IMG/VR virus record: IMGVR_UViG_3300035145_003993
Location: 124,001 to 188,000 of that record
Reading direction: 5' to 3' (one strand)
DNA length: 64,000 bases
From: a virus
Shown here: positions 14,497 to 60,926 of the stretch, one piece after another
Position numbering within the stretch: position 1 is the first letter of the stretch
How the letters are laid out: every line of letters starts with the position of its first letter
Translations under genes and position numbers: made by a program
The notes under the pieces: generated by a model
Database searches by the model: none
What the model saw: the letters and a program-made list of their open reading frames with translations, nothing else
Told to the model about the DNA's origin: nothing

Positions 14497-15564
14497 TTAA
14501 GGTTCTTCGTATATTTTTTTATCATATACAGGGTGATTATAAGATAAATCTAAAGCTTTAATACTCTTAGGACTAAGATTGTTATTCCTAAGATCAGCTT
14601 TATCGATTCCAACATTAGCCAAACTAAAGTCATGATATAAATTTTCTTTTGTGTGATTCACTAATCTATTAAGATCTTCGTATGTATTTAATAAAGATAA
14701 ATCTGATTCGTAATTAGGATTAAGATTATCAAACATGAAATATTCTGGATTTACATAATCTATAGTTCTTTTTTCTTTAATATTTTCAATCACGTCTATA
14801 AGTAATTCGTAATTAACTACATTTGTTGGAATCATAGAAAATCTAAATCTTTCTTCAATAAACTCTACTAAATATTTTAAAAAGTCGTCTGAAGCTCTGA
14901 CAAATCCTTCTGTATTATTTTGTAATTTAAAAATCGAACTTAATGTAGGAAAAATTTTCTTAATATCAGAAACAGAAAGACTTGAATCGAAGAAAGGAAC
15001 TTCGTTTTCATCAACACCATATATACGTTCAAGTTTTTCTGTAATGATCCATTCTGGATGAGGATCTAGATCGTATAAATAAGTTTTAGTAAAAAGTTGT
15101 GAAGATCCTTTTCCATACTGGCCTCGAGACACATTTAATTCTTTTAAATTAGAAATAGCACCTGCTTTATCCATGGATGCTTTTAATACAATATTATCAA
15201 CGTCGTTGATGTTAAAAACATATCTTTCCGCACCTTCAGCTATAAAATCTAATTCAAGTTCAGAAATTCCATATTTTTCAAGATAATATTGTCTATCTCT
15301 TAATCTATCTTCTCGATTGAATTCTAAATCCGGAATATTTTTTGTCTGTGAAAGAAGTAATAGTGTGTGTCCAAACTCATAAAAAGTATCTTGGCGTTTT
15401 TCATTTCCTTTATGCCAGTTTGAATATTCTGGGTCTAGAACTTCATTTTTTATCAACTTTAAATTTTCAGAAAGATTTTGTATAATACTATCATCTCTCA
15501 TATTAAGATCTTCATTTATATATTCTTTCCAAAGATTTATAAATACACTTTTATTATATATCAT
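14497..15564 (-). CDS. Kinase-fold protein with capsid-leader-like N-terminus
   Basis: 355 aa. Residues 1-18 (MIYNKSVFINLWKEYINE) fit the shared leader ending in I-N-E. From about residue 105 the sequence has marks of a protein-kinase/aminoglycoside-kinase fold: AEGAERYVF (glycine-loop position), IVLKAS (ATP-anchoring Lys at about 128), a hinge WIITEKL, a catalytic loop YHDFSLANVGI (Asp 312, Asn 317) and a metal-binding position KALDLSY (Asp 339). Substrate unknown. If the leader works as in T4, the enzyme would be packaged and injected. A late-type TATAAATA lies 32 bases upstream. Kinase assignment is moderately sure; activity is untested. Confidence 0.6.
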   Translation of the reverse strand: MIYNKSVFINLWKEYINEDLNMRDDSIIQNLSENLKLIKNEVLDPEYSNWHKGNEKRQDTFYEFGHTLLLLSQTKNIPDLEFNREDRLRDRQYYLEKYGISELELDFIAEGAERYVFNINDVDNIVLKASMDKAGAISNLKELNVSRGQYGKGSSQLFTKTYLYDLDPHPEWIITEKLERIYGVDENEVPFFDSSLSVSDIKKIFPTLSSIFKLQNNTEGFVRASDDFLKYLVEFIEERFRFSMIPTNVVNYELLIDVIENIKEKRTIDYVNPEYFMFDNLNPNYESDLSLLNTYEDLNRLVNHTKENLYHDFSLANVGIDKADLRNNNLSPKSIKALDLSYNHPVYDKKIYEEP

Positions 15565-15595
15565 ATATTTTCCTTTTATAGTTATATAATAATTA

Positions 15596-15603
15596 TATTT
15601 ATA
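15596..15603 (-). promoter_or_regulatory. Late-type promoter element TATAAATA
   Basis: Minus-strand TATAAATA (15603-15596) matches the T4 late promoter core. It lies 32 bases upstream of the kinase-fold gene, with RBS AAAAGGA in between. Single short motif, so moderate support only. Confidence 0.5.
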
Positions 15604-15619
15604 AAGTTAAAGAGATAAA

Positions 15620-15904
15620 ATGCTTCCATTTAAAGAAAAAATTATCGAAGAAAATGAAAATTTTATACTAGTTCAAAGAAACTTTATGTCAATGATGTCA
15701 GAAGAAGAATTAAATTGGCATAAGGATAAGGAAGAAAGAGAAGTATTTTTAGTTGAAGGCGATGGTTGGTATTTACAAATGGAAAATGAAATCCCTGTTT
15801 TAATGCAGAAAGGATCTGTTTTTAAAATACCTAAAGAAACATGGCATCGAATAATTAATAAAAACGGCACAAATTTAATAATCAATGTGAGAAAATATAA
15901 ATGA
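15620..15904 (+). CDS. Small cupin-fold protein, 94 aa
   Basis: Single conserved cupin barrel. Motif 1 is W-H-K-D-x3-R-E-V-F-L-V-E-G (about residues 33-47, His and Glu as possible metal ligands). Motif 2 is GSVFKIPKETWHRI (about 68-81, with a His). Cupins bind metals or small ligands; no specific reaction can be assigned. It starts a plus-strand run and overlaps the next gene by 4 bases (ATGA), so the two are co-translated. RBS AAAGAGAT is 7 bases upstream. Confidence 0.72.
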   Translation: MLPFKEKIIEENENFILVQRNFMSMMSEEELNWHKDKEEREVFLVEGDGWYLQMENEIPVLMQKGSVFKIPKETWHRIINKNGTNLIINVRKYK

Positions 15905-16479
15905 GTTTTAATCTTTTAAAAGAAATGATAAAAGAAATTATTTTAGTTGAATCAAATAAACCTTCAAAAGAATTAGAAAAATCTAAGTATGCTTTACTTA
16001 ATGGTGAAAAAGTAGAGATTATTGCTGCTGATGGACCTGGTGAGTATTCGATTGTTAGAAAGAAAAATTCTGATAAGGGTGAAGATAAAGAAGAATTTGC
16101 TTTAATGAAAGATCTTAAACCTTTAAAAAACGTAAACGAAAGAAAAGATCCTAAAGTAGGAACAGGGAAAAAACCAAAAGGAAGTGACAGAAGATTATAT
16201 ACTGACGAAAATCCAAATGACACAGTAAGAGTAAAGTTTAGAACTGCTTCAGATATTAGAAAAACTTTGTCAAAAAAATCTTTTAAATCAAAATCTCACG
16301 CTAGACAGTCTCAAATTATTAATTTAATACATCAAAGAGTTAGAGCTGCTTATAAAAACGCTAAAGATCCTAAAGTAAAAGCTCGTCTTAAAAGGGCATA
16401 CGAATATGCATGTGAAAGAAAAGAAGCATCAAAAAGAAAAACTTTAAGAATTAAAAAGAAAAAGCGAGAATTAAATTGA
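15901..16479 (+). CDS. Lysine-rich probable virion protein with leader, 192 aa
   Basis: Residues 1-17 (MSFNLLKEMIKEIILVE) are the amphipathic leader ending L-V-E, followed by Ser. The middle is charged and lysine-rich. The last 80 residues have the phage-family pattern RRLYTDENPNDTVRVKF...RQSQIINLIHQRVRAAYKNAKD and end in a very basic tail. Such small basic proteins with YTDEDPNDTV-like motifs are known from large phages without assigned function. Together these suggest a packaged DNA-associated internal protein. It overlaps its neighbours by 4 bases on each side. Confidence 0.65.
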   Translation: MSFNLLKEMIKEIILVESNKPSKELEKSKYALLNGEKVEIIAADGPGEYSIVRKKNSDKGEDKEEFALMKDLKPLKNVNERKDPKVGTGKKPKGSDRRLYTDENPNDTVRVKFRTASDIRKTLSKKSFKSKSHARQSQIINLIHQRVRAAYKNAKDPKVKARLKRAYEYACERKEASKRKTLRIKKKKRELN

Positions 16480-16739
16480 ATTTTAAATTATTAGAAAACT
16501 TTATAAAAGAAGTAATTTTAGATGAAACTAAAAAGAAAAAATCTAAAAGAAAAAAGAAGAAAAAAAGACCTGGAAAAAAAGAGTATTATAAAGGGACTAA
16601 GGATAGTAATAAATCAATGGCTTATGAAATTAATAAGTGTAGTCCAAAAGGAAAACCAAAAGGTTGGAAAGCTCCTAAATCTTGTTATGATTATTGGGAT
16701 GCAGATAAAAAATACGACAAATCAAAAGGTAAAAAATGA
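16476..16739 (+). CDS. Very basic small protein with leader, 87 aa
   Basis: Starts at TTG 16476 in a TTGA overlap with the previous stop, with GCGAGA upstream. Residues 1-17 (MNFKLLENFIKEVILDE) are the leader ending L-D-E. The mature part begins with a Lys/Arg run (KKKKSKRKKKKKRPGKK) and then KEYYKGTKDSN and SCYDYWDADKKY. The composition suits a DNA-condensing internal head protein. The KKKKSKRKKK block follows the leader directly, as in the next gene, so the two are probably paralogues at the N-terminus. Confidence 0.65.
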   Translation: MNFKLLENFIKEVILDETKKKKSKRKKKKKRPGKKEYYKGTKDSNKSMAYEINKCSPKGKPKGWKAPKSCYDYWDADKKYDKSKGKK

Positions 16740-17077
16740 AAAACTTAATTATTTTAGAAAACTTTATAAAAGAAATAATTTTAGACGAAGTTAAAAAGAA
16801 AAAATCTAAAAGAAAAAAGAAGGAGAATTCTAAAAAATTATCTGAAAAGATTAAAACAACTTTAAGAAAAAAGGCAAAAGATTCAAATATGCCATTAGGT
16901 GCTTTAACTTCTGTATATAAAAAAGGATTAGCAGCTTGGCTAACAGGACATAGACAAGGAATTCCTCAACATCAATGGGCAATGGCAAGAGTTAATAGTT
17001 TTATTAGAGGAGGAAAAACTAGAAAAGTTGACAAAGCCGAATGGAAAAAGGTTCAGAATTTTAGAAAGAAGAAGTAA
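16736..17077 (+). CDS. DUF5824-like basic protein with leader, 113 aa
   Basis: Leader residues 1-18 (MKNLIILENFIKEIILDE) ending L-D-E, then the same KKKKSKRKKK block as the previous gene. The C-terminal 65 residues match a known phage domain: PLGALTSVYKKGLAAWLTG, HRQGIPQHQWAMARVNSFI and a GGKTRK tail. I place it in the DUF5824-type family from memory. Function unknown; the context suggests a packaged basic protein. Start by ATGA overlap with the gene upstream. Confidence 0.68.
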   Translation: MKNLIILENFIKEIILDEVKKKKSKRKKKENSKKLSEKIKTTLRKKAKDSNMPLGALTSVYKKGLAAWLTGHRQGIPQHQWAMARVNSFIRGGKTRKVDKAEWKKVQNFRKKK

Positions 17078-17082
17078 AATAA

Positions 17083-17706
17083 ATGAAAAATTTATTGTTA
17101 GAAACAAATATAATCTCAGAAGGATTAAGATTTCATTTAATTGAAAATATAGGTGTTGAAAATAATATATATAGACCTGGTTCAATAAAATATTTTAATC
17201 TTTTTAGAGAAGTTAGAGACTTAAATAAAATAGGTTTATATAATCTTAGTTTAAAAGAAAAATACTATATTAATGAAACAGATATAGGTGAATGGGGATT
17301 TTATGGAAACAATTTAGTTCCTTTAGATTATCCTATTTTAGAAGGAGATGAGTCTTTAAAATCTAGTATTCCTGTTGAAATATTAAACGAAAAAAAGAAG
17401 AAAAAACCAAAGAAAAAAGGAAACTTCTATAAAGGAAAAAAAGTTCAATTAAATAAACCAAAAAGAGGTGGAAGAAAAAAATATTATGTATACGTCAGAA
17501 ACCCAGAAACAGGAAATATTAAAAAAGTAGAATGGGGAGCTAAAGGTATGTCTGTTGGTATTCATGATGAAGCAAGAAGAAAATCATTTGCAGCTCGTCA
17601 CAGATGTCATTTAACAAAAGATAAAACTACAGCAAGTTATTGGGCATGTAGAACGGGAAGATATCCGCATTTAACTGGCGGGAAAAAGAAATATACTTGG
17701 TGGTAA
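17083..17706 (+). CDS. Basic probable virion protein with short leader, 207 aa
   Basis: Residues 1-13 (MKNLLLETNIISE) form a short leader ending I-S-E. About 100 non-repetitive residues follow, then a lysine-rich linker near 134-150. The C-terminal domain carries YYVYVRNPETGNIKKVEWG, RKSFAARHRCHLTKDKTTASYWACR and a final YTWW. Two Cys and a His cluster could bind zinc. This C-terminal domain is familiar from hypothetical proteins of T4-like marine phages; no function is known. Last of the leader-bearing plus-strand run; its stop is 1 base from a convergent gene. Confidence 0.62.
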   Translation: MKNLLLETNIISEGLRFHLIENIGVENNIYRPGSIKYFNLFREVRDLNKIGLYNLSLKEKYYINETDIGEWGFYGNNLVPLDYPILEGDESLKSSIPVEILNEKKKKKPKKKGNFYKGKKVQLNKPKRGGRKKYYVYVRNPETGNIKKVEWGAKGMSVGIHDEARRKSFAARHRCHLTKDKTTASYWACRTGRYPHLTGGKKKYTWW

Positions 17707-17707
17707 T

Positions 17708-18196
17708 TTATTCTTTGTCATATCCAACAAAATGTACACCTTTGAAATGATCTTTTAAAAATGAATTTAGTTTTTTATTCATATCGAAAGATTCAATAGG
17801 TTCATCATTTTTTTCATTTTGTATGTCTTTCCAAACATATGTTAAAAAATCTTCTTCTAGTTTATTGTCTAATATTTGTTGAATCTCTTTGTTAATTCTA
17901 AAGTTATCTAAAAAACTATTAGTCTTTTTTCCTTTTTTTGAAAAATTCCACATACCTAGTAGTATGTCTCCTACATTAGTAACAGTATCAACACCAGGTA
18001 ATACGCCTGCTATTGTTTTTGCTATTTTAAAAACTTGTTTATTTTTATTTTTTAGTTTTGCATTAGCTAAAAGAGCTCTTAAGTCTCCGTAAGTTTTTAT
18101 GTCTTCTATATTTTTAACTTTAAAATTAACTTTATTTTCTTCATTGATTTTTTGTATTTCAAGTCTTATATAGTTTTCTAATATATTTTTTTTCAT
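17708..18196 (-). CDS. Leader-bearing probable virion-internal protein, 162 aa
   Basis: The leader MKKNILENYIRLEIQKINE (residues 1-19) ends I-N-E. The rest follows a pattern seen in phage internal proteins: GDLRALLANAK, then VFKIAKTIAGVLPGVDTVTN (a glycine-containing hydrophobic helix, possibly membrane-active), then LLGMWNF and DNFRINKEIQQILDNKLEEDFL. Convergent with the plus-strand run. Its promoter is probably the palindromic TATTTATAAATA 20 bases upstream. Function unknown. Confidence 0.62.
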   Translation of the reverse strand: MKKNILENYIRLEIQKINEENKVNFKVKNIEDIKTYGDLRALLANAKLKNKNKQVFKIAKTIAGVLPGVDTVTNVGDILLGMWNFSKKGKKTNSFLDNFRINKEIQQILDNKLEEDFLTYVWKDIQNEKNDEPIESFDMNKKLNSFLKDHFKGVHFVGYDKE

Positions 18197-18249: not shown

Positions 18250-18615
18250 ATGAAACCATATTATTACATTGCTGAAGTTGTTTCTGTTTATGATGGGGAT
18301 ACATGTACTTGTGTAGTTGATTTAGGATTTAAAACTTCAATAAGAATAAAGGTTCGTCTTATTGGGATTGATACGCCTGAAGTTAGAACAAAGGACAAAT
18401 CTGAAAAGGTGAGAGGATTAGAAACAAGAGACTGGCTCAGAGAAAAAATACTAAATAAAAAAGTTTTACTACATACTAAAGAAAGAGGAAAGTTTGGACG
18501 ATGGTTAGGAACTATTTGGTCTTTAGAACAAGATAAACCTGAGTTTGAAAACAGCTATAATAAAAAATTAATCAATGAAGGTTTTGCAAAAGAATATTGG
18601 GGTGGAAAAAGATGA
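18250..18615 (+). CDS. Staphylococcal-nuclease-like (thermonuclease) protein
   Basis: 121 aa SNase-fold nuclease, Ca2+-dependent in the type enzyme. Key motifs: VYDGDTCTCVVD (metal-binding Asp), RLIGIDTPEVR (catalytic Arg and Glu positions) and KFGRWLGTIW (second catalytic Arg). Degrades DNA or RNA; in phages it may recycle host DNA. It has no leader peptide or signal sequence. It is first in a two-gene unit and overlaps the next gene by ATGA. Confidence 0.88.
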   Translation: MKPYYYIAEVVSVYDGDTCTCVVDLGFKTSIRIKVRLIGIDTPEVRTKDKSEKVRGLETRDWLREKILNKKVLLHTKERGKFGRWLGTIWSLEQDKPEFENSYNKKLINEGFAKEYWGGKR

Positions 18616-19604
18616 AATATAGTTTAAAAGATCAATATAAAAGTTTGTTAAAAGAAGAACTTGCAATTGTAAAAAGATTAAGTCAAAATAATAAAACAGA
18701 ACTTTTCGATGTCGATCTATTTAAAAATGGTAATATTAAAGGTAAAAAAGTTGAAATATCAGATGAAGATAAAAATCTTTTAAAAATATATAATGATTAT
18801 TGTTCTGACTCTGATCTTAAATTAATTAATTTTATTAAAAATAACAAAGATAATATAAAATTTCGAATCAACATAAATGACATGAATGACAATAATATAG
18901 TGAATTATCTTAATCAAAATTTTAGTGAAACAATAAATTGGAATCCAAATAAAGTAAAAGATAAAGGCAGAGGAGAAGTTTCATTACATTTAGCATTTAA
19001 TTCTGATTTAAACTTTAAAGAGCCTGATTTTGTTTCTCACGATAATAAAAGAAAATTTTCTGTTAAATCATTTATAACAAACCAAGGAAACATTACTAAT
19101 GTTAGGTCTTCAAAAGACAATAGATTTATAGAAATATACGATAATAATAAAGAAATCAAATCTATATTTGATAATCAAAATTGGAACAACCTATTTTCAA
19201 TAACATCAGATTTTATAAAACAAAGTAGTAAAACTTATAATCCAATAGAATTTAAAAAAACAATTGAACATTTTGTTATAGAAAAAGATTTTTCAAAAGA
19301 AGAAATAATTTTAAAACTTAAAAAAATAAAAGAATTTTTAAACGAAATAAAAATAGAGTTAACAAAAGATCATGGTTCTGAATGTATTATTGGTATTGAC
19401 AAGAATAAACAATTTTTTATAGTTAATAGAGAAAATGCTATCGAAAAATTAGGTATATACAGAATTAATGGTAATGAAATTACTTACTATCATACAGATG
19501 ATACTAGAAGACTTACTTTTTCTAAGGTTATAGATATACTAATTAACGAAGTAAATCAACTTAAAGAGTCAAAGTTTAAAAGCGTATATAAACATTTATT
19601 TTAA
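18612..19604 (+). CDS. Leader-bearing protein of unknown function, 330 aa
   Basis: Start chosen at ATG 18612, overlapping the nuclease stop (ATGA); an in-frame TTG at 18597 is rejected. Residues 1-15 (MKYSLKDQYKSLLKE) fit the leader ending L-K-E. The middle contains GEVSLHLAFNSDL...EPDFVSHDNKRKFSVKSF, an alternating-strand region with conserved-looking Asp, His and Lys. It looks like a nuclease-type PD-(D/E)xK layout (E...D..S.K), but I cannot confirm this. The C-terminus has HGSECIIGIDKNKQFFIV. Co-translated with an SNase-like enzyme. Confidence 0.55.
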   Translation: MKYSLKDQYKSLLKEELAIVKRLSQNNKTELFDVDLFKNGNIKGKKVEISDEDKNLLKIYNDYCSDSDLKLINFIKNNKDNIKFRININDMNDNNIVNYLNQNFSETINWNPNKVKDKGRGEVSLHLAFNSDLNFKEPDFVSHDNKRKFSVKSFITNQGNITNVRSSKDNRFIEIYDNNKEIKSIFDNQNWNNLFSITSDFIKQSSKTYNPIEFKKTIEHFVIEKDFSKEEIILKLKKIKEFLNEIKIELTKDHGSECIIGIDKNKQFFIVNRENAIEKLGIYRINGNEITYYHTDDTRRLTFSKVIDILINEVNQLKESKFKSVYKHLF

Positions 19605-27411: not shown

Positions 27412-29817
27412 TTATAATTTCATTTTTTTAATTTTATCATCTATTGTATTTTTGACCTGGACTCTTTTGATACTGTCTTTTAAATAATTATCTTTTATAA
27501 CACTGTTATTTTTAAAAACATATTCATTAAAATCTTGAAGCATTTTTTTCGTTTCAGAAAATGACGAATTATTAATTTCTTTTAATTTTTTCCCGTATTC
27601 TGATTTTTGAAAATCTTTTGGATCATAATCTATATCAAATAAATTTGTGTCTGATAGATATTTTAATCCGTCGATTTTTTCTAAATCTTCATATCTTTTA
27701 TCAAGTTCGTCATTTAAATTATTATATTTTTGTTCTGTCATTTTTTTATTATCATCATATAATTTAAGAACATTTTGATATTCTTTTGAAAATAAAGACT
27801 GAAAGTATTCAATCACTTTAATATACGTTTCAGCAATTTCTTTTTGAATAAAACCTTCAATATTAGATATTTCATCGTCGTCAGTACTTAAAATTTCGTT
27901 AATAAAGTCTTCGTTATTTTCTAATTCATTTATTTTCATAAAATTTGTATTTAACCAATTAAATATAGCAATATATTTTTCTTGATAACTCATTTCAAAA
28001 AATTTAAGACTAAAAATAATTCTATCAGTAATTATCTTCTCTAATTCTTGAAGATAATTGCTATTCTCTATTGAGTCTTTAAAAGTTTTATATGAACTTT
28101 CATTTTTAAAGTCTTCAAAATTGTGATCAATATTTTTTTTAAATAAATTTTTATCTTTACTCTTAATTTTAATATCATCTAATAATAAATTATAATATTG
28201 TTTTATATACGAATCAGAATCTTCTTGTATACTTTTTTTAATATTACTAATTTCTTCTTGTTTTAATTTATCGTCAGAATTTTTTAAATCGTCTATTTTT
28301 TCTTCGAAATTTTTTAATTCTTTTTTATATATATCTTTTTCGTCAATAAATATTTGATCAGTTAGATAGTCATTTATGTAACCTTTGAGATCATTATCTT
28401 TGATGTAATTTAAAAAACCTCCAATGTTATCTTGAATTTTATTTTGAATTAGTTCATTAAAAGTTTTATCTTGAATTTTATTTACTTTTTTAAAATCTGT
28501 ATTAGAAACAAGGCTTTTGTCTACACCATAATCAAGATTATATTCATTAACAGCTTTTACTAAAAGTAAGTCAATTATAATGCAAGAAGCAAGTCTATAT
28601 TGATCTTTATAATATTTATTTATTTTATCTAAATCTTCATCAGATTTTTCTATTTCAAAAGTTTTATTATTTAAATCTTTTTTTTCTGATTCAGAACTGT
28701 TTTCAATCTTATCTCCTAGATCATTAAATTTTTTATTAGTTTTTTCGTTTTTATTAACTTGTTTTAAAGATTCTGTTTTAAAGTCAAATTTCCCATCATT
28801 GATAATCTTTTGAATTTCTTCATTTTCTAAAAGAACTGCTACAGCTATAGAATTGGATAATTCTAGAATTAAAGAAGCAAATTTATCAATTTCAAAATCA
28901 TTACCAATATTTTCTTTTAATATAATATTTTTATTATTAATTTGCAAAACTTTTTTTAATCTATATGAAGACTCGTTCTTTTTTGTGTCAACTAAAGAAG
29001 TTTTTTTTATCGATTTTAAATAACTTTTAAGTTTCTCTAAGAATTTTTTTGATGTTTTGTTTTTTATAATGTTATAAGAAGTATAAGTTCGATTTTCTAA
29101 TACTTTTTTTATTAAATTGAAAGTTTCTTTGTCTTTTTTCTTAAGAACCTCGTTGTTCATAATATCAAAAAATTCTGGGTGAGCTTTTTTACTTAAAAAT
29201 AAATTTAATTTAGGTTTAAGTTTATTAACTTTTTGTATGTTTTTTCTTAAAAGTTGATCAATAATAGTTTTTGTAGGTGATTCTATTTTATTATCTTCAT
29301 TAGATATAAGTTCAATTTCATAAATCATCCAAAAGATTATAAGTTGATACATATCATGGTCAATATTATTGTATTTTGCATATAAATTTTTATTATACAA
29401 TTTCCCAGTTAAAAGATCAGATAAATTAATTTTGTCAAATATTGTTACACCTGGAACACTTAAAGCAAAAGTAGATAATTCTGAATTTGATATTCCTGCT
29501 TTGTTTAACATAGACTTTGTTGTATTGTCTATATTAGATATTGTTCTATCACTTGAATCAACAAAACTTACTCTTGCGTCTTTTAATGCTCTTTTAAAAT
29601 CTTCATCTGACATGTTTTTTAATATTTTTGCTCTAAAGGTAAGCCATCCAGATTTTATTGTGAATTTTGCTAATTGTGATAAAAACTTAGAACTATCACC
29701 CATAAATGAACTAACATCTCCAACAACGTCGGTTGTTATACCTTTTAATAATTCCTTATCAGAGCTGTCTTCTAAAATAATTTTTTTATTAAAAATCTTT
29801 AATACTTTATTTTTCAT
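27412..29817 (-). CDS. Large leader-bearing virion-internal protein, about 801 aa
   Basis: Start taken at ATG 29817 (GAAGAAG upstream) so that the leader MKNKVLKIFNKKIILE begins the protein and ends I-L-E; an in-frame ATG 18 bases earlier is possible. Residues about 20-130 hold a conserved-looking phage domain (FTIKSGWLTFRAKIL, LSVPGVTIFDKI). Near residue 285-300 a second leader-like word (KKVLQINNKNIILKE) occurs, after which a long acidic, coiled-coil-rich region runs to the end. It may be two fused cargo proteins. Function unknown; a scaffold or ejected core protein is plausible. Confidence 0.6.
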   Translation of the reverse strand: MKNKVLKIFNKKIILEDSSDKELLKGITTDVVGDVSSFMGDSSKFLSQLAKFTIKSGWLTFRAKILKNMSDEDFKRALKDARVSFVDSSDRTISNIDNTTKSMLNKAGISNSELSTFALSVPGVTIFDKINLSDLLTGKLYNKNLYAKYNNIDHDMYQLIIFWMIYEIELISNEDNKIESPTKTIIDQLLRKNIQKVNKLKPKLNLFLSKKAHPEFFDIMNNEVLKKKDKETFNLIKKVLENRTYTSYNIIKNKTSKKFLEKLKSYLKSIKKTSLVDTKKNESSYRLKKVLQINNKNIILKENIGNDFEIDKFASLILELSNSIAVAVLLENEEIQKIINDGKFDFKTESLKQVNKNEKTNKKFNDLGDKIENSSESEKKDLNNKTFEIEKSDEDLDKINKYYKDQYRLASCIIIDLLLVKAVNEYNLDYGVDKSLVSNTDFKKVNKIQDKTFNELIQNKIQDNIGGFLNYIKDNDLKGYINDYLTDQIFIDEKDIYKKELKNFEEKIDDLKNSDDKLKQEEISNIKKSIQEDSDSYIKQYYNLLLDDIKIKSKDKNLFKKNIDHNFEDFKNESSYKTFKDSIENSNYLQELEKIITDRIIFSLKFFEMSYQEKYIAIFNWLNTNFMKINELENNEDFINEILSTDDDEISNIEGFIQKEIAETYIKVIEYFQSLFSKEYQNVLKLYDDNKKMTEQKYNNLNDELDKRYEDLEKIDGLKYLSDTNLFDIDYDPKDFQKSEYGKKLKEINNSSFSETKKMLQDFNEYVFKNNSVIKDNYLKDSIKRVQVKNTIDDKIKKMKL

Positions 29818-30079
29818 AGTGTTTATCTTCTTCATATAATTTTAAACTAATACCATAATTATCAGAACAGTAATTAATTAAGCTTATTTCGAAGTCATTT
29901 AATGTATGTTTATACGATTGACTATTCCTAGTAGAAAAATATTTTCTAATTTTAGGTTGCGAATATCTCATAATATATTTTTTAACAATTAACCAATTGT
30001 CTTCTTTATATATATCTAATAACTCTTCAAGAAGTTCTATAATTGTTTCCTTATGGTTTTGATCTATAGTGTTAAACAT
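29807..30079 (-). CDS. Hypothetical protein, 90 aa
   Basis: Helical protein MFNTIDQNHKETIIELLEEL, then LIVKKYIMRYSQPKIRKYF and a C-terminal helix. It overlaps the 5' end of the 801-aa gene by 11 bases and the gene upstream by 1 base (TAATG). Probably co-translated with the virion-internal block. Family unknown. Confidence 0.55.
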   Translation of the reverse strand: MFNTIDQNHKETIIELLEELLDIYKEDNWLIVKKYIMRYSQPKIRKYFSTRNSQSYKHTLNDFEISLINYCSDNYGISLKLYEEDKHYEK

Positions 30080-31044: not shown

Positions 31045-31752
31045 TTAAGAATTAATTTTTTTTAAAAATTCAATTATTTCTTTTTTCTCTTGGATAGACT
31101 CTTCGACTTCTGTATCGACATTACCTACCTTTATTACTGAAATTGGTGATGCCAATTTTTCTTCTGCTTTCTCTTTTGGCATATCTTGTAAATCTTCTAA
31201 TTGATCTTTTCTACTTTGTGATCTTTTTAATTCACTTTTTGTTGCTTCTGATTTTCCAATAATAATTTTTAAATCTTTAGGGCTATAAGCTGCTTTTCCG
31301 TTTACGTCAAGTAAAGTTATTTGTACGAGACCTTTTAAGAATACGTGTAAAGCCTTTTTTTCGTCACCTGTAAGCTTGTTAAAATATTTTTCTAAATCTT
31401 CATGAACACTTTTCTTAGAAAGAGAATGCGACGCTCTAAACTGATTTAGAATACTTTTAAGTTTATCAAAATTATCAGCATCTGCTAAGTTAATAGTAGA
31501 AGGAGATTCATCTGGAGTATCATCAATCATTTCTTCTTTATCGTCAACTCTTTCTTCTTTATTATCATCTCCTATTTCAGATGAGTCATTAGATTCTTCT
31601 TCATCTTCTTTGAGATTTTTTTCTAAATCTTGATGATAAGTTCCTCTACTTCTAGAGTCAGCAATAAATTCATTTTGATTTTCTTTAACTTTTTCCCAAG
31701 AGTTTTCTTCTTTTAATATTTCTTCAAGTTTGTTTAAAATATCAAAATTCAT
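31045..31752 (-). CDS. Acidic leader-bearing protein, 235 aa
   Basis: The leader MNFDILNKLEEILKE (residues 1-15) ends L-K-E. Residues about 40-85 are strongly acidic (DEEESNDSSEIGDD and similar). A helical domain FDKLKSILNQFRASHSLSKK, then DEKKALHVFLKGLVQITLLD follows, and the charged C-terminus ends EIIEFLKKINS. It looks like a scaffold-type or internal head protein. It overlaps the 56-aa gene by 1 base. Function unknown. Confidence 0.6.
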   Translation of the reverse strand: MNFDILNKLEEILKEENSWEKVKENQNEFIADSRSRGTYHQDLEKNLKEDEEESNDSSEIGDDNKEERVDDKEEMIDDTPDESPSTINLADADNFDKLKSILNQFRASHSLSKKSVHEDLEKYFNKLTGDEKKALHVFLKGLVQITLLDVNGKAAYSPKDLKIIIGKSEATKSELKRSQSRKDQLEDLQDMPKEKAEEKLASPISVIKVGNVDTEVEESIQEKKEIIEFLKKINS

Positions 31753-31936: not shown

Positions 31937-32287
31937 CTATTTGTATATAATTATTTTAATTTTATAATTATTTTCAAAAACGTTATATAATTTATATTTT
32001 AATAATGATTTTTTACCATTAAATATAGATTCTTCAAAGTCTTCTAACCCAATTGAAATGTTAATTTCTTTATTTATAAATAACTTCTGTAAAGACTTTT
32101 TATTAATTTTGAATGTAACCTTATATTTACTTTTTGAATTAACGTATGATAAAATAGAAAACTTTTCATTAAATAACTTAATCCATAGATTATTGTTATT
32201 AATATTAGAAGAAGAAAGATTATCTAAATCAATTATATCTTCTAGATCCTTAGACAAAAATAATCTTTCTTCTTCACTATTCTGCAT
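31937..32287 (-). CDS. Hypothetical protein, 116 aa
   Basis: An acidic start (MQNSEEERLFLSKDLEDIID) is followed by a strand-rich part (SKYKVTFKINKKSLQKLFI, LLKYKLYNVF, YKIKIIIYK). Possibly a small beta-sandwich. It overlaps the pterin-dehydratase-like gene by 11 bases. No family recognised. Confidence 0.5.
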   Translation of the reverse strand: MQNSEEERLFLSKDLEDIIDLDNLSSSNINNNNLWIKLFNEKFSILSYVNSKSKYKVTFKINKKSLQKLFINKEINISIGLEDFEESIFNGKKSLLKYKLYNVFENNYKIKIIIYK

Positions 32288-32624
32288 AATAATACATTAC
32301 ATCTTTTTTGATTTTGTCTATATCTTTTGAAGCTTCTAATTCTAGTTCTGAAACTCTTCCTGAATAAGAATGGATAATAATTCCTACAGATAATTTTCTA
32401 AATCTCAATTCAATATCAGCATCACATTCATTAGTATATTTTAGTATTTCTACAATAAATGACTCAAAAAACTTTACACTTTCAAACAAATATACTTTTT
32501 TTAATTTCTTCTCTTCGACATTTATCCATTTAGACTTTTTTACTTTTAAAGGTTTAAAACTGTCTTGAACCTTTAAATTAGAATTTTCATTTAAATAGTT
32601 TTGCATCAGGTTTTTTAAATACAT
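32277..32624 (-). CDS. Pterin-4a-carbinolamine dehydratase-fold protein with leader
   Basis: The leader MYLKNLMQNYLNE (residues 1-13) ends L-N-E. The rest has the PCD layout: a W (residue about 33), KKVYLFESVKFFESFIVEIL (strand then helix 1), ADIELRF (edge strand), SVGIIIHSYSGRVSELELEAS (strand, turn, helix 2) and a final helix. The catalytic His pair of PCD (usually HHP) is replaced by NECDAD, so dehydratase activity is doubtful. PCD-like genes are known in phages without clear role. The leader suggests packaging. Confidence 0.5.
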   Translation of the reverse strand: MYLKNLMQNYLNENSNLKVQDSFKPLKVKKSKWINVEEKKLKKVYLFESVKFFESFIVEILKYTNECDADIELRFRKLSVGIIIHSYSGRVSELELEASKDIDKIKKDVMYYYAE

Positions 32625-35600: not shown

Positions 35601-35774
35601 TCCATTAGTTAAATTTAAAGATCTAACTAAACATTTGAATTCTTCAAAAAGAACTTTATTTTTATTTAAATCACTCTCGCTTAATCTTGAAAGAGCATAA
35701 AACTTTCTTTGATAATCTTTGTTTTTAAAAGAAAGAAGTTTATTAACTCTATATTTTAGTTTGTTATTCGTCAT
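32640..35774 (-). CDS. Very large acidic structural-type protein, 1044 aa
   Basis: The largest single intact gene here. It starts MTNNKLKYRVNKLLSFKNKD, which is basic and amphipathic but has no x-Glu site at the usual place. Acidic, Asp/Glu/Ser-rich linkers (about 140-215 and 430-470) separate helical domains. Motifs include SYGQFASGAGVRQLAQKAW and WIIMSIEVYLTLESQSN. The C-terminus is basic. It lies 1 base from a leader-bearing gene and 16 bases before the PCD-like gene. No enzymatic motif seen. Probably a virion core or ejection protein, by context and size. Confidence 0.55.
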   Translation of the reverse strand: MTNNKLKYRVNKLLSFKNKDYQRKFYALSRLSESDLNKNKVLFEEFKCLVRSLNLTNGDLPNEKYIFEFLKNNITNDFIKEIKESIDLKYSKSIRDFDSLINEELDKVNYVNKELDLKLENILIKSIEDKIDLLESRTSRRRRRSLDNIEGPSQEELEMIQQQLDDEFGSEDLDSVQQKKDEEDFSEIDLDDLPDSDLKPAPSLSQPVESIYKKVKSKEQKRFSKGPSNNKIAKALGFTGTGKYVAGQKSAVLQPWDQLVVYVSNKLKNSGVSQENDLSLLAKRKLWIIMSIEVYLTLESQSNMMLGISDSEKDRMISSLDKAQKLNLKNAVSSFRRSVGLGKSLSSEEIRSIIVDVKEELSRGDFDLESDLIREQVLLRLWSRSGSSRNKSIQELKQELDIMYPLNQEYTADFDLEPRLSDDELEKLKQQNIEFDKRISDDPDQDDNFYIEEEINVTKELEDYSSKNRNLSLTVFELQKYMKQISDDIKRLNDLYKKSTERVNPDIFNPIEEDEFGNIINIPDTIPAEDLSEEEENEIKEILERLSYKDKINIINVDKKRKFYRDLYDNYASIDDVIKKTQEHVSKFGLDKKENLTDVDISHMSYGQFASGAGVRQLAQKAWSQELFYSCNPDEKARIYSAAADRWTERLVKLDLIDDKSFVRVPSKNEDEADVAISSSQLKQLELQGKYKRSKKLEDVSDYFSEISKILTDTKLLQRYFDEARDDSVAQEISEKINSIKILSDDDEASYNELLKDLSKNDKGFSSYLVLEASLGNQSGFSLYVIGLLDNFYKKKIQGRTKNSIIKATKEYFDTHYGKDILAPGLSPSSPRIEQIKKDEGQNIFVSIANVVQKLSGLGSSGSKGISKSSAKSTRDSQRDYFLNPGKGYLIGKVEKLNSNRDEDDQLKSFFGGEFNRKDVEKLLDDMFSPNGIIGSVYEDLKILTKTTADELINHIYSMSDSDIDESIIKAFASSEFKNRTDFDVLIPKVFDKIGKDSKEALENYKELYGSLLIGKDFADYLDSEFGLETIKLPKTRKSRKKTK

Positions 35775-36148
35775 TATTTTTGACCTTTATTAATAATTTG
35801 TGTTGCTGATTTCCAAATTTTTTCTGCTAAATCATCTGAAATGTCTTTATTATCATCTAATATTGATATCATAGCAGAAGATAACTCAACAGATTTCGGG
35901 ACATAATTTTTATCTCTTACATTATGATTTTTTTTTAACATTGATACAGAGACAAAGTCATCTGCTGTAAGAGGAGTATTTAATTCTAAGTCTAGTTCTT
36001 TTTGATCTCCGTTTAATTTAGATCCTGTAGTATCAAACATTGTTGTTCGACTGCTTGTAAATCCATCTGGAAACATTTCTTTTATGCTATTTTCAAACAA
36101 AATGTTTTTAACAATATCTCTAAGATCTTTTTTTGTCAAGTTACTCAT
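35774..36148 (-). CDS. Leader-bearing hypothetical protein, 124 aa
   Basis: The leader MSNLTKKDLRDIVKNILFE (residues 1-19) ends L-F-E. The mature part contains MFPDGFTSSRTTMFDTTGSK and a helical C-terminus (DDLAEKIWKSATQII). It overlaps the 1044-aa gene by 1 base (TAATG-type). Probably a virion-internal protein; family not recognised. Confidence 0.58.
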   Translation of the reverse strand: MSNLTKKDLRDIVKNILFENSIKEMFPDGFTSSRTTMFDTTGSKLNGDQKELDLELNTPLTADDFVSVSMLKKNHNVRDKNYVPKSVELSSAMISILDDNKDISDDLAEKIWKSATQIINKGQK

Positions 36149-36513: not shown

Positions 36514-36760
36514 TAATATCTTTAAGATTGTTTACTTTTTTATTTTTTAATTCATCAATTCTTTCGTGAACAAGTTCTTTTAAGTAAAGATCGTCATTAA
36601 CATATTTTTCGGCCATTAATCTAAAAAATTTTTGCATTGACATTTCATCTAAAAAAAGCTTTGTCCTAAGTTTCTTGTGTAATTCTCCAGGAAACTCAAC
36701 ATGAATTGTTTTATTATTAATAATTTTTTTGACTTGTTTATTTAATCGTTTATTTTTCAT
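36458..36760 (-). CDS. Ribbon-helix-helix-like protein, 100 aa
   Basis: Residues about 15-50 read INNKTIHVEFPGELHKKLRT, then KLFLDEMSMQKFFRLMAEKY. This is a strand followed by two helices typical of Arc/MetJ-type RHH DNA-binding proteins, with the second helix in the place of the SxxxFFR motif. The charged tail could mediate other contacts. Possible transcription regulator or DNA-segregation factor. It overlaps the acidic gene by 1 base. Confidence 0.6.
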   Translation of the reverse strand: MKNKRLNKQVKKIINNKTIHVEFPGELHKKLRTKLFLDEMSMQKFFRLMAEKYVNDDLYLKELVHERIDELKNKKVNNLKDINEKDLYSAIEENSPFKKD

Positions 36761-37548
36761 TATCCTTGTTTAACTGCACCTGTTGCTGTATTATGTTTTG
36801 TGTTGTCTAAAACATGTTCAGGATATTCAATACCAAATTTACTATAAAGTTCTTTGTGATATAAATCATCAAATTCTTGAACATTTTTTTCTATATTATC
36901 TCCACTATTTAATACTAATACATTTTTAGCTGCTTGTTTAACAATAAGTTCTTTAGCAAAAAGTTTATCAAAATTTTTATATGCTTTTATAGCTGCTTTA
37001 ACATACTCTTTGACATCTGCTTCTTTTTCACTTATTTTTTTTACTAATGATGTACCTTGAGAAACAACATTATCTAAAGATTTAATAGAACTCTCTAAAT
37101 TTTCTACAGAGTCTTCTAGATCTTTTTCTGATTCTTCAAATATAAAATAATTTTTTAATGAATTTTTTCCAATTTTGAAGTTTTCATCTAGTTGACTTTC
37201 TATATAATCTTCAATTTTATTTATTTCTTCACCATTGATATGCTTCTTTTGCTCTTTTTCTAATTTATTTATTTTTTTTGTAAGAGTTTCAACAGCTGCA
37301 ATACTATAACCAATATCTTGAGTTTCTTGTTCACTTTTGTCAACAGGGTCTTCAGTGATATCTTCGTTAGAAGTCTCAGAACTTTCATCGGGAGTCTCAG
37401 AACCTTCATCGGGAGTCTCAGAACCTTCACCATCTTCGTCAGGCATATCAAAAGAAGGATTTTCATCTTCTTCTACTAATAAACTTTTAAGACTTAAAAA
37501 ACTATTTTTTTCTGTTAACACTTTATCAACTTTATTTAAAAAATTCAT
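36760..37548 (-). CDS. Acidic leader-bearing protein with ETPDE repeats, 262 aa
   Basis: The leader MNFLNKVDKVLTE ends L-T-E at residue 13, and a second possible cut (LLVE) lies near residue 27. Residues about 35-65 contain tandem repeats GSETPDE, GSETPDE, SSETSNE. The remainder is a long helical region (VEDSVENLESSIKSLDNVVS) and a domain with AKNVLVLNSGDNIEKNVQEF. Acidic repeats resemble scaffold-like internal proteins. The upstream neighbour is the SOD-fold gene. Function unknown. Confidence 0.58.
   Translation of the reverse strand: MNFLNKVDKVLTEKNSFLSLKSLLVEEDENPSFDMPDEDGEGSETPDEGSETPDESSETSNEDITEDPVDKSEQETQDIGYSIAAVETLTKKINKLEKEQKKHINGEEINKIEDYIESQLDENFKIGKNSLKNYFIFEESEKDLEDSVENLESSIKSLDNVVSQGTSLVKKISEKEADVKEYVKAAIKAYKNFDKLFAKELIVKQAAKNVLVLNSGDNIEKNVQEFDDLYHKELYSKFGIEYPEHVLDNTKHNTATGAVKQG
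37370..37432. repeat. Three 21-bp tandem repeats inside a coding region
   Basis: Units of the type GGGAGTCTCAGAACCTTCATC occur twice almost perfectly and once degenerate, encoding GSETPDE/SSETSNE. The spacing keeps the frame. Copy number could vary between isolates. Confidence 0.75.
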
Positions 37549-38280: not shown

Positions 38281-38738
38281 AAACTAAAATTGTCCTCAAA
38301 TTCTTTAATAGGTACGTCTAAATATTCTTCGTTAGAGTCTATATCATATACATTTGATTTTATATCAACATTAAAAGACTTTTTATATTTAACTTTTTTA
38401 TTAGGTGGAAAAATTTCACCTTTATTATTTTTACTAGGTTTCTTAGATTCTTTATCTTTTTCGTTTATTTGATAATAAGATTTTGACATTTCTAAACTAT
38501 CAAGGCCTTCACCCGGAAATAGTAATCTAACAAAAAATTCACCACCTTTTTCAATAACATTAATTACTGTATATAAAAAACCCGCTTTGTCTTTAACTTT
38601 TAAACCTCTAGCAGAAGCTATTAAGTCATTATCATCTTTGTCTCTAACTTCAATTTCATTTAAATTTAAATAATGATCAATTCTTTTTTCATATTCTTCT
38701 TTTAAAAGATCAAATATTTGATTACTATTATTTTTCAT
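38277..38738 (-). CDS. Leader-bearing hypothetical protein, 153 aa
   Basis: Residues 1-14 (MKNNSNQIFDLLKE) fit the leader ending L-K-E. A strand-rich domain follows (GFLYTVINVIEKGGEFFVRLLF), probably a small barrel, and then a lysine-rich linker. It overlaps the SOD-fold gene by 4 bases. The AT-only region upstream (38,760-38,820) contains (TA)-rich late-promoter-like sequence but no clear core. Probably a virion protein. Confidence 0.55.
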   Translation of the reverse strand: MKNNSNQIFDLLKEEYEKRIDHYLNLNEIEVRDKDDNDLIASARGLKVKDKAGFLYTVINVIEKGGEFFVRLLFPGEGLDSLEMSKSYYQINEKDKESKKPSKNNKGEIFPPNKKVKYKKSFNVDIKSNVYDIDSNEEYLDVPIKEFEDNFSL

Positions 38739-39275: not shown

Positions 39276-39752
39276 ATGTCTTATTTGTTATTAGAAAATT
39301 ATATTAAATCTATTATAGAAAAAAATACAATTAAAGAACTACATGTTTTTGATTTTGATATGACTTTATACAATCATAATAAAAAAGATTGGTTTGAAGA
39401 TGTCATGTTAAATTTAAAAAAATCTTTAAAAGATCCAAGTGTAAGAGTTATTTTATGCACAGCAAGAGAAAAAAGCGAAAATTTTATATTAAAAACTGAG
39501 AAGTTGCTTTCTACACGTAAAATGTCTCTTGAAGACTTTAATGAGTGTTATTTTAAATCAATACATAGAAAAGAAAAAACTCCGATTTATAAATCTAATG
39601 TCATTTTAGATGAAGTTAGTTCTAACACTAATATTGTAAAAGTAAAGTTTTGGGATGATCGTGAAGATACTCTTAATCAAGTTAAAAAAGATTTAAAAAA
39701 ATATAACGAAAATATAATTTATATTCCTGTTAATCCTTTAAAAATTGCATAA
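39276..39752 (+). CDS. HAD-superfamily phosphatase with capsid-type leader
   Basis: The leader MSYLLLENYIKSIIE (residues 1-15) ends I-I-E and is almost the same as in neighbouring basic proteins. The HAD core follows: motif I VFDFDMTLY (nucleophile Asp 26, Asp 28), motif II ILCTARE and motif IV FWDDRED. This short HAD form resembles the phage Swiss-Army-Knife RNA-repair or polynucleotide-phosphatase types. The substrate could be a nucleic acid end. The leader implies virion packaging. Plus strand, divergent from dCMP deaminase; its stop overlaps the convergent next gene by 15 bases. Confidence 0.7.
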   Translation: MSYLLLENYIKSIIEKNTIKELHVFDFDMTLYNHNKKDWFEDVMLNLKKSLKDPSVRVILCTAREKSENFILKTEKLLSTRKMSLEDFNECYFKSIHRKEKTPIYKSNVILDEVSSNTNIVKVKFWDDREDTLNQVKKDLKKYNENIIYIPVNPLKIA

Positions 39753-43155: not shown

Positions 43156-43365
43156 ATGTACCAAATTTTAGAAAATTATATACAACTTGTATTTGAAAAC
43201 GAAAAAAATAAAAACAAAACGTTTAAAGATATACTTAATAGTTTAAAAAATAGTCAAAATCCTAAAAAGGTACTAAGAAATACAGATCCTATAGAAAGAA
43301 ATACAGATCAAATAGGATTTGACCAATTAATTAAAAAATCTAGTAATTCTAATCAAACGCGTTAA
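43156..43365 (+). CDS. Small leader-bearing basic protein, 69 aa
   Basis: Residues 1-14 (MYQILENYIQLVFE) match the leader closely and end V-F-E. The mature 55 residues are basic and polar with a near-repeat (RNTDPIERNTDQIG). Clear RBS AAAGGAAAAAC. The stop overlaps the convergent dnaE-C gene by 17 bases. Its size recalls the T4 internal proteins that are packaged and injected. Function unknown. Confidence 0.65.
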   Translation: MYQILENYIQLVFENEKNKNKTFKDILNSLKNSQNPKKVLRNTDPIERNTDQIGFDQLIKKSSNSNQTR

Positions 43366-57868: not shown

Positions 57869-57873
57869 ATTTA

Positions 57874-58638: not shown

Positions 58639-58688
58639 ATGGTTACATACCTTTCTTATTTTTTATAATTTTATTAATTTGTTTTATT

Positions 58689-58717
58689 ATTATATTAATA
58701 TTAGTTTTATTTTACAC
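58689..58717 (-). promoter_or_regulatory. Promoter GTGTAAAA-N15-TATAAT
   Basis: Minus strand: GTGTAAAA (58717-58710), 15-base spacer, TATAAT (58694-58689), 51 bases before the methyltransferase gene; probably drives methyltransferase and thyX. Confidence 0.78.
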
Positions 58718-58723
58718 TAAAAA

Positions 58724-59506
58724 TTAATCAATATTGTAATATAATTTTTCTGCCCAAGGTATAACATCCCATTTTTTTGCTGAAATGTTGTGGTGTCCTA
58801 CAATACTATATTTAGAAGCTTCTTTCACAGACATTACATCTAAACTTTCACAAACTGGTTTGTCTGTGAGATTAGTTGCTTCTCTTAATGATTGTAAAAA
58901 TTGTTTGCAAACATCTGCAAAATCGTCACCAATCATTACTAATTTTCTTCCTTTTACTCTATTATCTGGTATTTTACAAACTTGAAGTGATGCATCTGGG
59001 TACCAATTTTTAGTTTTTTCCCAATATTTTTCATCTGGATGCATGCAAATATCAATACCAATAGAGTATTTATTAAATTTTCCTGCATGATAAGCAGCTA
59101 AACCTGTATCTAAGCATTGTAAAATTTCATATTCACCTGTTTTATGATTTCTTCCAATTAAAAAATGTGAAGAAACGTGTCTTCCTCTTGCAAGATTAAA
59201 AACATTATAACAGTGTCTAGAATTTAATCCTCCCCAATGTACACAAATAGATGTAGGATCAGATTTTCTTTTATACCAATTTTTTGTACCATCATCAAGT
59301 TCGTATAAAGGCGCAGACCAATCAATTTCTAAAGGAGAATCAATTGGAACGACTTTTCCCATATGCATTATGATAGGCATCCCATAATATTGTCTAACTG
59401 CTCTATGAGTTGCTGGTCCATATATACCATCTGCTTTAACACCTACTTCTTGTTGAAGTGATATTACATATTCTTTGTTTTTATTTAAAGTACTAAACTG
59501 TTCCAT
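58724..59506 (-). CDS. N-acetylmuramoyl-L-alanine amidase endolysin
   Basis: Cleaves the peptide from the glycan of peptidoglycan for lysis. Residues 1-45 are a peptidoglycan-binding domain (LQQEVGVKADGIYGPATHRA). The amidase_2 domain follows: SICVHWGG (first zinc His), SSHFLIGR, CLDTGLAAYHAG, SIGIDICMHP, and a late YSIVGHHNISAKKWDVIPW (second His and final ligand). There is no signal peptide, so a holin or other release is needed. It overlaps by 1 base the leader-bearing gene upstream. Confidence 0.88.
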   Translation of the reverse strand: MEQFSTLNKNKEYVISLQQEVGVKADGIYGPATHRAVRQYYGMPIIMHMGKVVPIDSPLEIDWSAPLYELDDGTKNWYKRKSDPTSICVHWGGLNSRHCYNVFNLARGRHVSSHFLIGRNHKTGEYEILQCLDTGLAAYHAGKFNKYSIGIDICMHPDEKYWEKTKNWYPDASLQVCKIPDNRVKGRKLVMIGDDFADVCKQFLQSLREATNLTDKPVCESLDVMSVKEASKYSIVGHHNISAKKWDVIPWAEKLYYNID

Positions 59507-59928
59507 TATCTATTATTACCTTCAATTCTATCTTTAATTCTATCTTTAATTATTTCTTCCTTGTTAGGATAAGATTTTATAACTATTTTAAGACATTTTT
59601 CTGTTAATTTTATTAAAGATTTTACATCATCATCAGTTATAGGTTCATTTTTATTTTTTTTAAAACTTTTTTTAAGTTTAAAAAGACTTTCATCATCTGT
59701 AGACATTTCTAAATATTCTAAATAAGAATTAATATTTAACAATAATGAATTAATCATTCTGTCTGCAGATTCTGGTGTTTTTAAACTTAGTTTAACAAAT
59801 CCTATAGCTTCATCATAGTCTAAATCCATCTGCTTTTCACTAATTTCTGTAATGATTTCTTTATTTGGCAAATTTTCATCTAGTAGAAATTGTCTCCATT
59901 GATTAAACATTTCGTATATATTTTTCAT
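59506..59928 (-). CDS. Leader-bearing protein, 140 aa
   Basis: Residues 1-18 (MKNIYEMFNQWRQFLLDE) are a classic capsid-targeting form with Trp and an L-D-E end. The mature protein is helical and acidic in the first half (DYDEAIGFVKLSLKTPESAD), then lysine-rich. A short tandem IKDR repeat ends the protein. It lies 11 bases after the 328-aa leader-bearing gene. Probable internal head protein. Confidence 0.6.
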   Translation of the reverse strand: MKNIYEMFNQWRQFLLDENLPNKEIITEISEKQMDLDYDEAIGFVKLSLKTPESADRMINSLLLNINSYLEYLEMSTDDESLFKLKKSFKKNKNEPITDDDVKSLIKLTEKCLKIVIKSYPNKEEIIKDRIKDRIEGNNR

Positions 59929-59939
59929 AAATAATCCTT

Positions 59940-60926
59940 TTAATAATCTAAATTTTCTTCGTAATCATCATATTCATCAGAATCACCAAATTCAGTAAAT
60001 GCAGTTGCTGTATTTAAAACATATTTTCCTAAGACATTTTGTAAGTCTTCTGTTCCAACTTCATTTTTTGCTCTATTTATCATATCCTCATTGATATTAC
60101 TACCGTCGAGAGCGCCACAAATTTTCAAAGATCCAAGAGCTGTCATTAGATTTATTATTTCGTCACTTGCATTTTGAGTTCTTAGAAAATTAATTTTTTC
60201 TTGAACGCTATCTTTAATTCTTTTCTTTTCAGAAGGTTTTACATTATAGACACCTCCTTGAGAAAATAAATCGTTTTCATCTTCAGACTGCTCTAAATTT
60301 AGTGGCTGTCTAAAGAAACTAATAACATCATCATTTTTTCCTGAAATGACATTTTGACTCCACTCTTCTAGGCTATCAAATTTATTAATACCTAAATCAC
60401 CTTCAATATCATCTTTATTTAAGCTCAATTCTTCATAGACATCATCTGATAAGTTTAAAGAATTTGACAGTAATTCTTGAAATAAAAGAACTAAAGGATT
60501 TTCTTGATTTTCTTGATTTATAGGATTAGAATCGATTCCAAAAACAGATTTAATAGCAGATAATTCTTTGTCTGTAAGTTGTTTAAAATCATTATTATTA
60601 ATCCTTCTAGTAAAAGAATCTTTAACGCTATTAGGAATACTATTAGGATTGCCAATCTCTTTTGCTGTGTTTACTATAGCTGTTTCTTCGTTAGGTTTTA
60701 ATTTAGTATTTTTCCCTATTTGAGTTCCTAAAATACCTGTTGTTCCTATTGCTAATATTAATATTTTTTCTAATGGTGTTGTATTAGAAACGAATTTTTT
60801 TATATTTTTTAAAAAATTTTCGTCTATTCTATTATTTTTATTTAAAATACTTTCAAATATATAGTCTATTTCATCGTAGTAAAATATTTGATTTTTAATA
60901 TAACTTTCTAATAATTGATTTGTCAT
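59940..60926 (-). CDS. Leader-like virion protein with one hydrophobic helix, 328 aa
   Basis: MTNQLLESYIKNQIFYYDE begins like the leader but ends Y-D-E, so the cut site is less clear (IFE at about residue 25 is another candidate). Near residue 52-72 a hydrophobic, Gly-rich helix (LEKILILAIGTTGILGTQIG) could span a membrane, as in ejection proteins. The rest is acidic and Asn-rich with a Tyr/Asp-rich end. Function unknown. Confidence 0.55.
   Translation of the reverse strand: MTNQLLESYIKNQIFYYDEIDYIFESILNKNNRIDENFLKNIKKFVSNTTPLEKILILAIGTTGILGTQIGKNTKLKPNEETAIVNTAKEIGNPNSIPNSVKDSFTRRINNNDFKQLTDKELSAIKSVFGIDSNPINQENQENPLVLLFQELLSNSLNLSDDVYEELSLNKDDIEGDLGINKFDSLEEWSQNVISGKNDDVISFFRQPLNLEQSEDENDLFSQGGVYNVKPSEKKRIKDSVQEKINFLRTQNASDEIINLMTALGSLKICGALDGSNINEDMINRAKNEVGTEDLQNVLGKYVLNTATAFTEFGDSDEYDDYEENLDY

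Follow-up and report, generated by a model that had tools for sequence, protein, structure and literature searches.

Predicted capsid-targeting leaders on some 20 otherwise unrelated proteins of a T4-superfamily phage

The DNA analysed here, a window of 64,000 bases, comprises bases 124001-188000 within the 211,364-base virus record IMGVR_UViG_3300035145_003993, a phage that is a member of the T4 superfamily as judged from its head genes. About 20 otherwise unrelated proteins of this phage start with a short leader, and the occurrence of such N-terminal leaders exceeds chance and is real. Very probably, they act as capsid-targeting propeptides like those known from the T4 internal proteins (IPs), and the tag most likely directs proteins into the head and hence, together with the DNA, into the next bacterium. 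An initial annotation of the window had already listed 17 genes as probable capsid cargo, and this reading is supported by an encoded prohead protease, an LxE site in the capsid protein, the T4 targeting rule (PMC9026906), the mobility of the leaders and tagged virion enzymes of cyanophages.

Leader motif, probable cleavage site and protease

The 16 clear leaders of the phage fit one motif in an almost gap-free alignment. Several leader types occur, e.g., LLENFIKEIILDE, LRSIIRKVIAE and W..FLNE, and the LLENFIK/LRxIIR and W..FL.E types align with the ungapped core h-x-x-x-[IFYW]-[IVNRK]-[KR]-x-h-[IL]-x(1-2)-E. A profile of nine columns was built solely from these 16 leaders, with no sequences of relatives in it. 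At a score of 8, leave-one-out scoring of the phage itself gave 24 of 281 N-termini vs. 31 of 1407 internal windows (p=1.5e-6). The nearest relative found, G001 (a 240-kb contig with an 86% identical capsid protein), showed 18/306 N-termini vs. 12/1635 internal windows (p=3e-8), and of the further relatives compared (G002, G005, G007 and G009), two were strongly enriched (G002: 13/148 vs. 5/1162, p=1.6e-9; G005: 22/343 vs. 6/1946, p=6e-14) and G009 weakly so (p=0.008). All relatives are metagenomic, except for the cultured cyanophages, Melnitz and immuto, and gene starts are predictions. The control phages T7, crAss001 and phi38:1, which lack a T4-type head, gave no hit at 193 N-termini. When homologs were collapsed and relatives of the phage's own leader proteins were removed, 61 independent clusters remained and the enrichment persisted (p=5e-13).

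A second, independent criterion came from T4 mutagenesis and not from this phage. In T4 IPIII, the first ten residues suffice for packaging, with positions 4 and 7 serving targeting and positions 8 and 10 serving cutting (PMC9026906). The corresponding rule, hydrophobic residues at positions 4, 7 and 8 and Glu at position 10, was met about three times as often as expected at the N-termini of each of the six phages (p=3e-14 to 1e-5) and showed no enrichment in the three controls. The leaders thus agree in pattern with the T4 capsid-targeting sequence (CTS), at a length too short to establish homology; tblastn of one leader against cultured phages gave no clear match.

Glu had been omitted from the profile for the test of the cleavage site, so that the site and its following residue are features the profile did not use. 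Of the 86 N-terminal hits, 56 had an [LIVMF]xE motif at a distance of 9-12 residues downstream from the start of the core, compared with 16 of the 91 internal hits (p=7e-11). The next residue was small (S, A, N, G or T) in 33 of the 56 cases, against 32% for the residue following this motif at other places (p=2.5e-5), and both signals withstood the collapse of homologs (p=3e-8 for the site and p=6e-4 for the small P1' residue). Most listed genes have putative propeptides of 13-19 residues, that of a superoxide dismutase (SOD)-like protein being longer (38).

A T4-type head module with a gp23-like capsid protein (phrog_138, 8e-75), a gp20-like portal protein and a large terminase lies at record bases 2434-14137, outside the window. 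The prohead protease whose presence the initial annotation had proposed to check is encoded there as well: a gp21-like S77 protease (PF03420, E=1.5e-29; phrog_207, E=5.7e-50) adjoins the capsid and portal genes, and all of 11 relatives possess such a protease, too. The capsid proteins themselves carry L-[RK]-E, mostly followed by S or A, in 66 of 66 readable sequences (78 matches), at the place homologous to the cut position of T4 gp23.

These features bear on a different role of the leader, namely that of a docking helix for another place in the infected cell, such as the membrane, the replication site or a host complex, with the Glu ending being incidental. Short amphipathic helices would suit many docking roles, and the structure model of the tagged protein 85372 has an N-terminal helix. 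Such a role leaves the LxE ending, the small next residue and the match to the capsid site unexplained; moreover, the pattern is absent from the three control phages without T4-type heads and the same pattern marks proteins detected in virions (see below). We therefore regard docking elsewhere as unlikely.

The mechanism that capsid targeting would imply is, in each of its steps, established in T4. In the present phage, the N-terminal amphipathic leader helix would bind the scaffold core during prohead formation and the tagged proteins would be enclosed as the shell forms; with its helix bound to the core during assembly, each tagged protein would thus be caught inside. The gp21-like S77 protease would cut after [L/I]-x-Glu and free the mature protein within the head, where it would stay with the DNA and be ejected into the next host. 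By analogy, we infer core binding, cleavage and ejection for this phage, and its proteins would be present in virions and cut.

Exchange of leaders and tagged virion proteins of other phages

Comparison with the relatives shows that leader and mature domain can be parted and that leaders move independently of their cargo. In G001, two separate genes each have their own leader, whereas here they are fused as 15901 and the second leader is gone; the second half of 15901 is >90% identical to G001 16311-16688, beginning just after the leader of that gene. HAD proteins also differ in their leaders, with LLENYIK in 39276, a diverged form in its G001 ortholog (MNNLLKEYVYNIILE/N; here and below, a slash stands for the candidate cut) and a W-type leader in one HAD protein of G002. 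In the 85372 cargo family (15 proteins from several phages), LRxYIR, ILENYIK or W-type starts occur and homology to 85372 lies mostly in the body. A GNAT acetyltransferase was suspected for this family from a G.GPLLYD motif; Foldseek gave no settled fold.

That the leaders merely reflect shared ancestry, as a common N-terminus kept by paralogs and without a present tag function, is disfavoured and appears scarcely credible. True paralogs do exist, e.g., the G005 cluster and the pair 14497/83810, but leaders occur on unrelated folds (SOD, HAD, DUF5824, kinase-like), are swapped within one family and remain enriched after the homolog collapse described above. The G005 cluster (248446-262832) comprises about 15 genes, nearly all with MKxLRxYIRKILL.E starts, and resembles a cargo island of paralogs and singletons. 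A further module was seen at 19596-19961 (minus strand) of the window, a small domain MPYKVKKRKCKNSQGKKGKYIITKK..CHTSKSKA; in a 14497-type protein (G001 21702-22976), a similar module takes the place of the leader, and in G005 (210629-211360) it precedes DUF5824.

Capsid targeting by such tags gains from published virion proteomes of cultured T4-like phages. The virion proteome of cyanophage S-CREM2 was determined by mass spectrometry (PMC10665884). A strict form of the T4 rule applies to 5 of the 26 virion proteins that are neither structural nor lytic, vs. 1 of the 168 proteins that went undetected (p=1.6e-4, one phage). The five are a SAM hydrolase (MKDFDSFLEE), an APH-like kinase (MKRFDAFLTE), a cytidylyltransferase (MKNFSSFLTE) and two unknowns; the structural and lysis proteins all lack the strict tag. 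A Cas9-like virion protein carries ..RFASFMAE/A further in. Cleavage and N-termini are unmentioned in that paper according to a text search (PMC10665884). Similarly, NMNAT is listed among the virion proteins of S-SCSM1 (PMC9602691), and it starts with MKSFLQFLKE/A.

A protein of phage Melnitz connects these enzymes to the window. It begins with MKKFSEIIE/A and fuses a cytidylyltransferase to the domains of 16736 (DUF5824) and 17083; the window cargo therefore belongs to a family with virion members. The DUF5824 domain of 16736 is 53% identical to that of the fusion, the C-terminus of the phrog_3041 cytidyltransferase matches too, and the Melnitz gene after the fusion matches window 15620. The enzyme part of the Melnitz protein shares 37% identity with the S-CREM2 virion cytidylyltransferase (E=2e-46). 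A homolog in PA5oct, which has no such start, is not marked as detected by mass spectrometry there and its neighbours are (one case). Leader-like starts were also noticed in the cultured Flavobacterium phage immuto (L143 2955, 4283, 6287 and 18340; L155 5530 and 6016), where L155 6016-6456 has the leader MISIYNILKE and then a glycine-rich kinase-like stretch without a Pfam match.

The virion data further bear on the option that the leaders recruit proteins as scaffold or assembly aids only, most of which would be degraded or expelled and not delivered. In T4, proteolysis reduces the core proteins gp22, gp67 and gp68 to fragments (PMC9026906), and a conserved head-module protein at 7692-8117, beside the protease, capsid and portal genes, has a related N-terminal helix (start MAKVSRSMLKSIVKECLVELLAEG). 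This protein has no match in cultured phages and might, speculatively, be a core component that the leaders imitate or bind. On the other hand, the SOD-like protein keeps its catalytic residues, and mature S-CREM2 and S-SCSM1 virions contain tagged enzymes, so that we judge a role in assembly alone to be very unlikely.

Several points weigh against capsid targeting as set out here. The profile is not significantly enriched in G007, where only the T4 rule is; several of the listed genes are weak; and the exact cut is uncertain, as some leaders hold two or three LxE sites. The bridge between the leader types consists of pattern and cargo and is not proven homology, because the S-CREM2 leaders are T4-like (MK.F..FLTE) and not of the LLENFIK/LRxIIR kind. 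Finally, this phage and its near relatives are known from sequence alone, and the virion data stem from other T4-like phages, to which we compare them by analogy.

Tagged genes and their neighbours

In the following list, minus-strand genes are referred to by their low coordinate, e.g., 14497 for 14497-15564. "Strong" denotes the motif together with a G001 ortholog that keeps the leader, or a high score. By this measure, the 17 listed genes divide into about 11 strong, five plausible and one unsupported.

Strong:
14497..15564, minus strand: predicted APH-like kinase; W-type leader MIYNKSVFINLWKEYINE/D
15901..16479, plus strand: fusion of two genes (separate leader genes in G001); leader MSFNLLKEMIKEIILVE/S
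16476..16739, plus strand: small basic protein, isoelectric point (pI) 10; leader MNFKLLENFIKEVILDE/T
16736..17077, plus strand: DUF5824 protein (PF19141, E=1.1e-13, from residue 19); leader MKNLIILENFIKEIILDE/V
17708..18196, minus strand: leader MKKNILENYIRLEIQKINE/E
32277..32624, minus strand: leader MYLKNLMQNYLNE/N; G001 MILKNIMFDYLNE/T
35774..36148, minus strand: leader MSNLTKKDLRDIVKNILFE/N; G001 MSINKEDFRSFVKDILFE/N
37558..38280, minus strand: predicted Fe/Mn superoxide dismutase-like protein; N-terminal propeptide with conserved (L/I)xE/[AS]YV site
39276..39752, plus strand: HAD protein; leader MSYLLLENYIKSIIE/K, followed directly by the domain (HAD_SAK_1, E=2e-8, residue 33 onwards)
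43156..43365, plus strand: 69-residue protein, pI 9.6; leader MYQILENYIQLVFE/N; leave-one-out score 16.5
59506..59928, minus strand: W-type leader MKNIYEMFNQWRQFLLDE/N; leave-one-out score 8.0

Plausible:
17083..17706, plus strand: leader-like start MKNLLLE/.., a weaker leader
18612..19604, plus strand: leader-like start MKYSLKDQYKSLLKE/E; profile score 9.9
27412..29835, minus strand: weak leader-like start ..NKKIILE/D; G001 ortholog ..NNLLLKE/D
31045..31752, minus strand: leader-like start MNFDILNKLEEILKE/E
36760..37548, minus strand: leader-like start MNFLNKVDKVLTE/K; motif retained in part in G001

Unsupported:
38277..38738, minus strand: listed in the initial annotation

Additional:
59940..60926, minus strand: leader-like start MTNQLLESYIKNQIFYYDE/I; score 11.4, not a profile seed

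The N-termini are as first described and 16 of the 17 genes remain as strong or plausible. The leader of 38277 was not upheld, as conservation with G001 continues past the start and is indistinguishable from that of the body. Within the window, the original count should thus lose between one and six genes, and six outside it should be added. Leaders are further carried by 59940-60926 and by six genes beyond the window (G000:83810-87951).

Enzyme folds could be assigned to two tagged proteins, one Fe-SOD-like and the other HAD, and a third is a predicted APH-like kinase. For 37558, the prediction as an Fe/Mn SOD-like protein has good support from Sod_Fe_C (E=4.5e-18) and the best PDB match 1coj (E=9e-31). 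In five phages, a diverged N-terminal helix is followed by E/[SA]YV and then by a conserved body, with (L/I)xE present in four of the five, and the candidate metal ligands H, H, D and H are kept in all five (alignment read by eye). The assignments of 39276 to HAD and of 16736 to DUF5824 are likewise well supported. A kinase fold of 14497 is a tentative prediction, for which the top Foldseek matches, all APH kinases, were obtained on a low-confidence model (best E=2e-3, pLDDT 49). The family invariants (G111, R114, K128, E142, D312xxxxN317 and D339) are compatible with a kinase, a Pfam search returned no match, and profile comparison with the S-CREM2 kinase gave nothing significant, just a D-H-N stretch. 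The G001 ortholog of 14497 (37% overall identity) retains the leader FFFNVWKDFLNE/S.

Among the remaining genes, 16476 starts with TTG and its G001 ortholog with ATG and the same leader type. The G001 homolog of 17708 is diverged (28%) and begins with MNVIKDYVRNFLLLE/Q. The body of 17083 is 68% identical to its G001 counterpart and 37% to residues 488-645 of the Melnitz fusion. Homologs of 31045 with similar L..L..E starts occur in G001, G005, G007 and G009; 18612 has no homolog among the compared relatives. Several small cargo proteins are strongly basic (pI 9.6-10.7) and in this resemble the T4 IPs. UvdE (13495-14466) was considered as tagged cargo and rejected; its similar-looking start is spurious, since the ortholog begins at an internal ATG, and no clear ribosome site precedes the TTG codon of this copy.

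The window holds further genes of note. The C-terminal part of a DNA polymerase III alpha subunit (43349-46444, minus strand) starts with an intein C-terminal splicing domain (PF14890, 2e-9) and, together with a PHP-like start at 47464-48381 (minus strand), has the look of a polymerase split by an intein. The C-terminal part of a ribonucleotide reductase large subunit (62866-63927, minus strand), with the intein C-terminal piece first (PF14890, 3e-6, below the curated cut-off), is probably another split-intein gene. Adjoining adenylosuccinate lyase-like, adenylosuccinate synthetase and IMPDH/GMP reductase genes (9815-13436, minus strand) could possibly be linked to altered purine nucleotides in DNA, and 23897-25528 (minus strand) encodes a GroEL-like chaperonin (Cpn60, 7e-59).

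Comparison with known systems and meaning

The system shares with T4 IPI-IPIII and Alt a short N-terminal propeptide (10-19 residues in T4 and 13-19 here; PMC9026906, PMC3012670), the hydrophobic/Glu pattern at IPIII positions 4, 7, 8 and 10, a gp21-type protease and diverse mature domains. Whereas T4 has four tagged proteins, there are about 20 here; their leaders are of several types, and SOD-like, HAD, DUF5824 and kinase-like domains are among the cargo. Virion enzymes are reported from mass spectrometry of the cyanophages S-CREM2, S-SCSM1 and S-SM1, and those checked start with a T4-type CTS. The DUF5824 and 17083 domains of the window are linked to the same cytidylyltransferase/NMNAT family; the tag in cyanophages is however MK.F..FLTE, and the consulted passages of these papers mention neither a targeting sequence nor cleavage. 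In the phiKZ-like giant phages SPN3US and 201phi2-1, too, a gp21-related protease cleaves many head proteins behind a Glu (PMC9026906), but at another cleavage motif. CTS-based packaging of diverse proteins by T4-like phages is an idea already proposed (PMC9026906, PMC3012670), while the open-licence literature gave no account of CTS-packaged diverse proteins in these phages or in cyanophages.

On balance, we find it fairly probable that a general capsid-address code with exchangeable tags is common to the phages of the T4 superfamily, under which any protein bearing one of several short N-terminal tags would be taken up by the head and passed on along with the DNA. If so, each phage would carry ten to thirty enzymes in a rapidly changing assortment, virion cargo could be predicted from sequence, and T4, with three IPs and Alt, would represent a small case. 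Proteins entering with the phage DNA act ahead of any phage gene expression, and the injected proteins of T4 counter host restriction. Given a tag that can be recognised in the sequence, many phage genes that are unexplained at present would become predicted injected effectors, and what the "mystery" virion enzymes of marine phages do could be tested directly. The leaders would furthermore widen the choice of targeting tags for loading proteins into T4 heads, for which only the one T4 CTS is currently in use.

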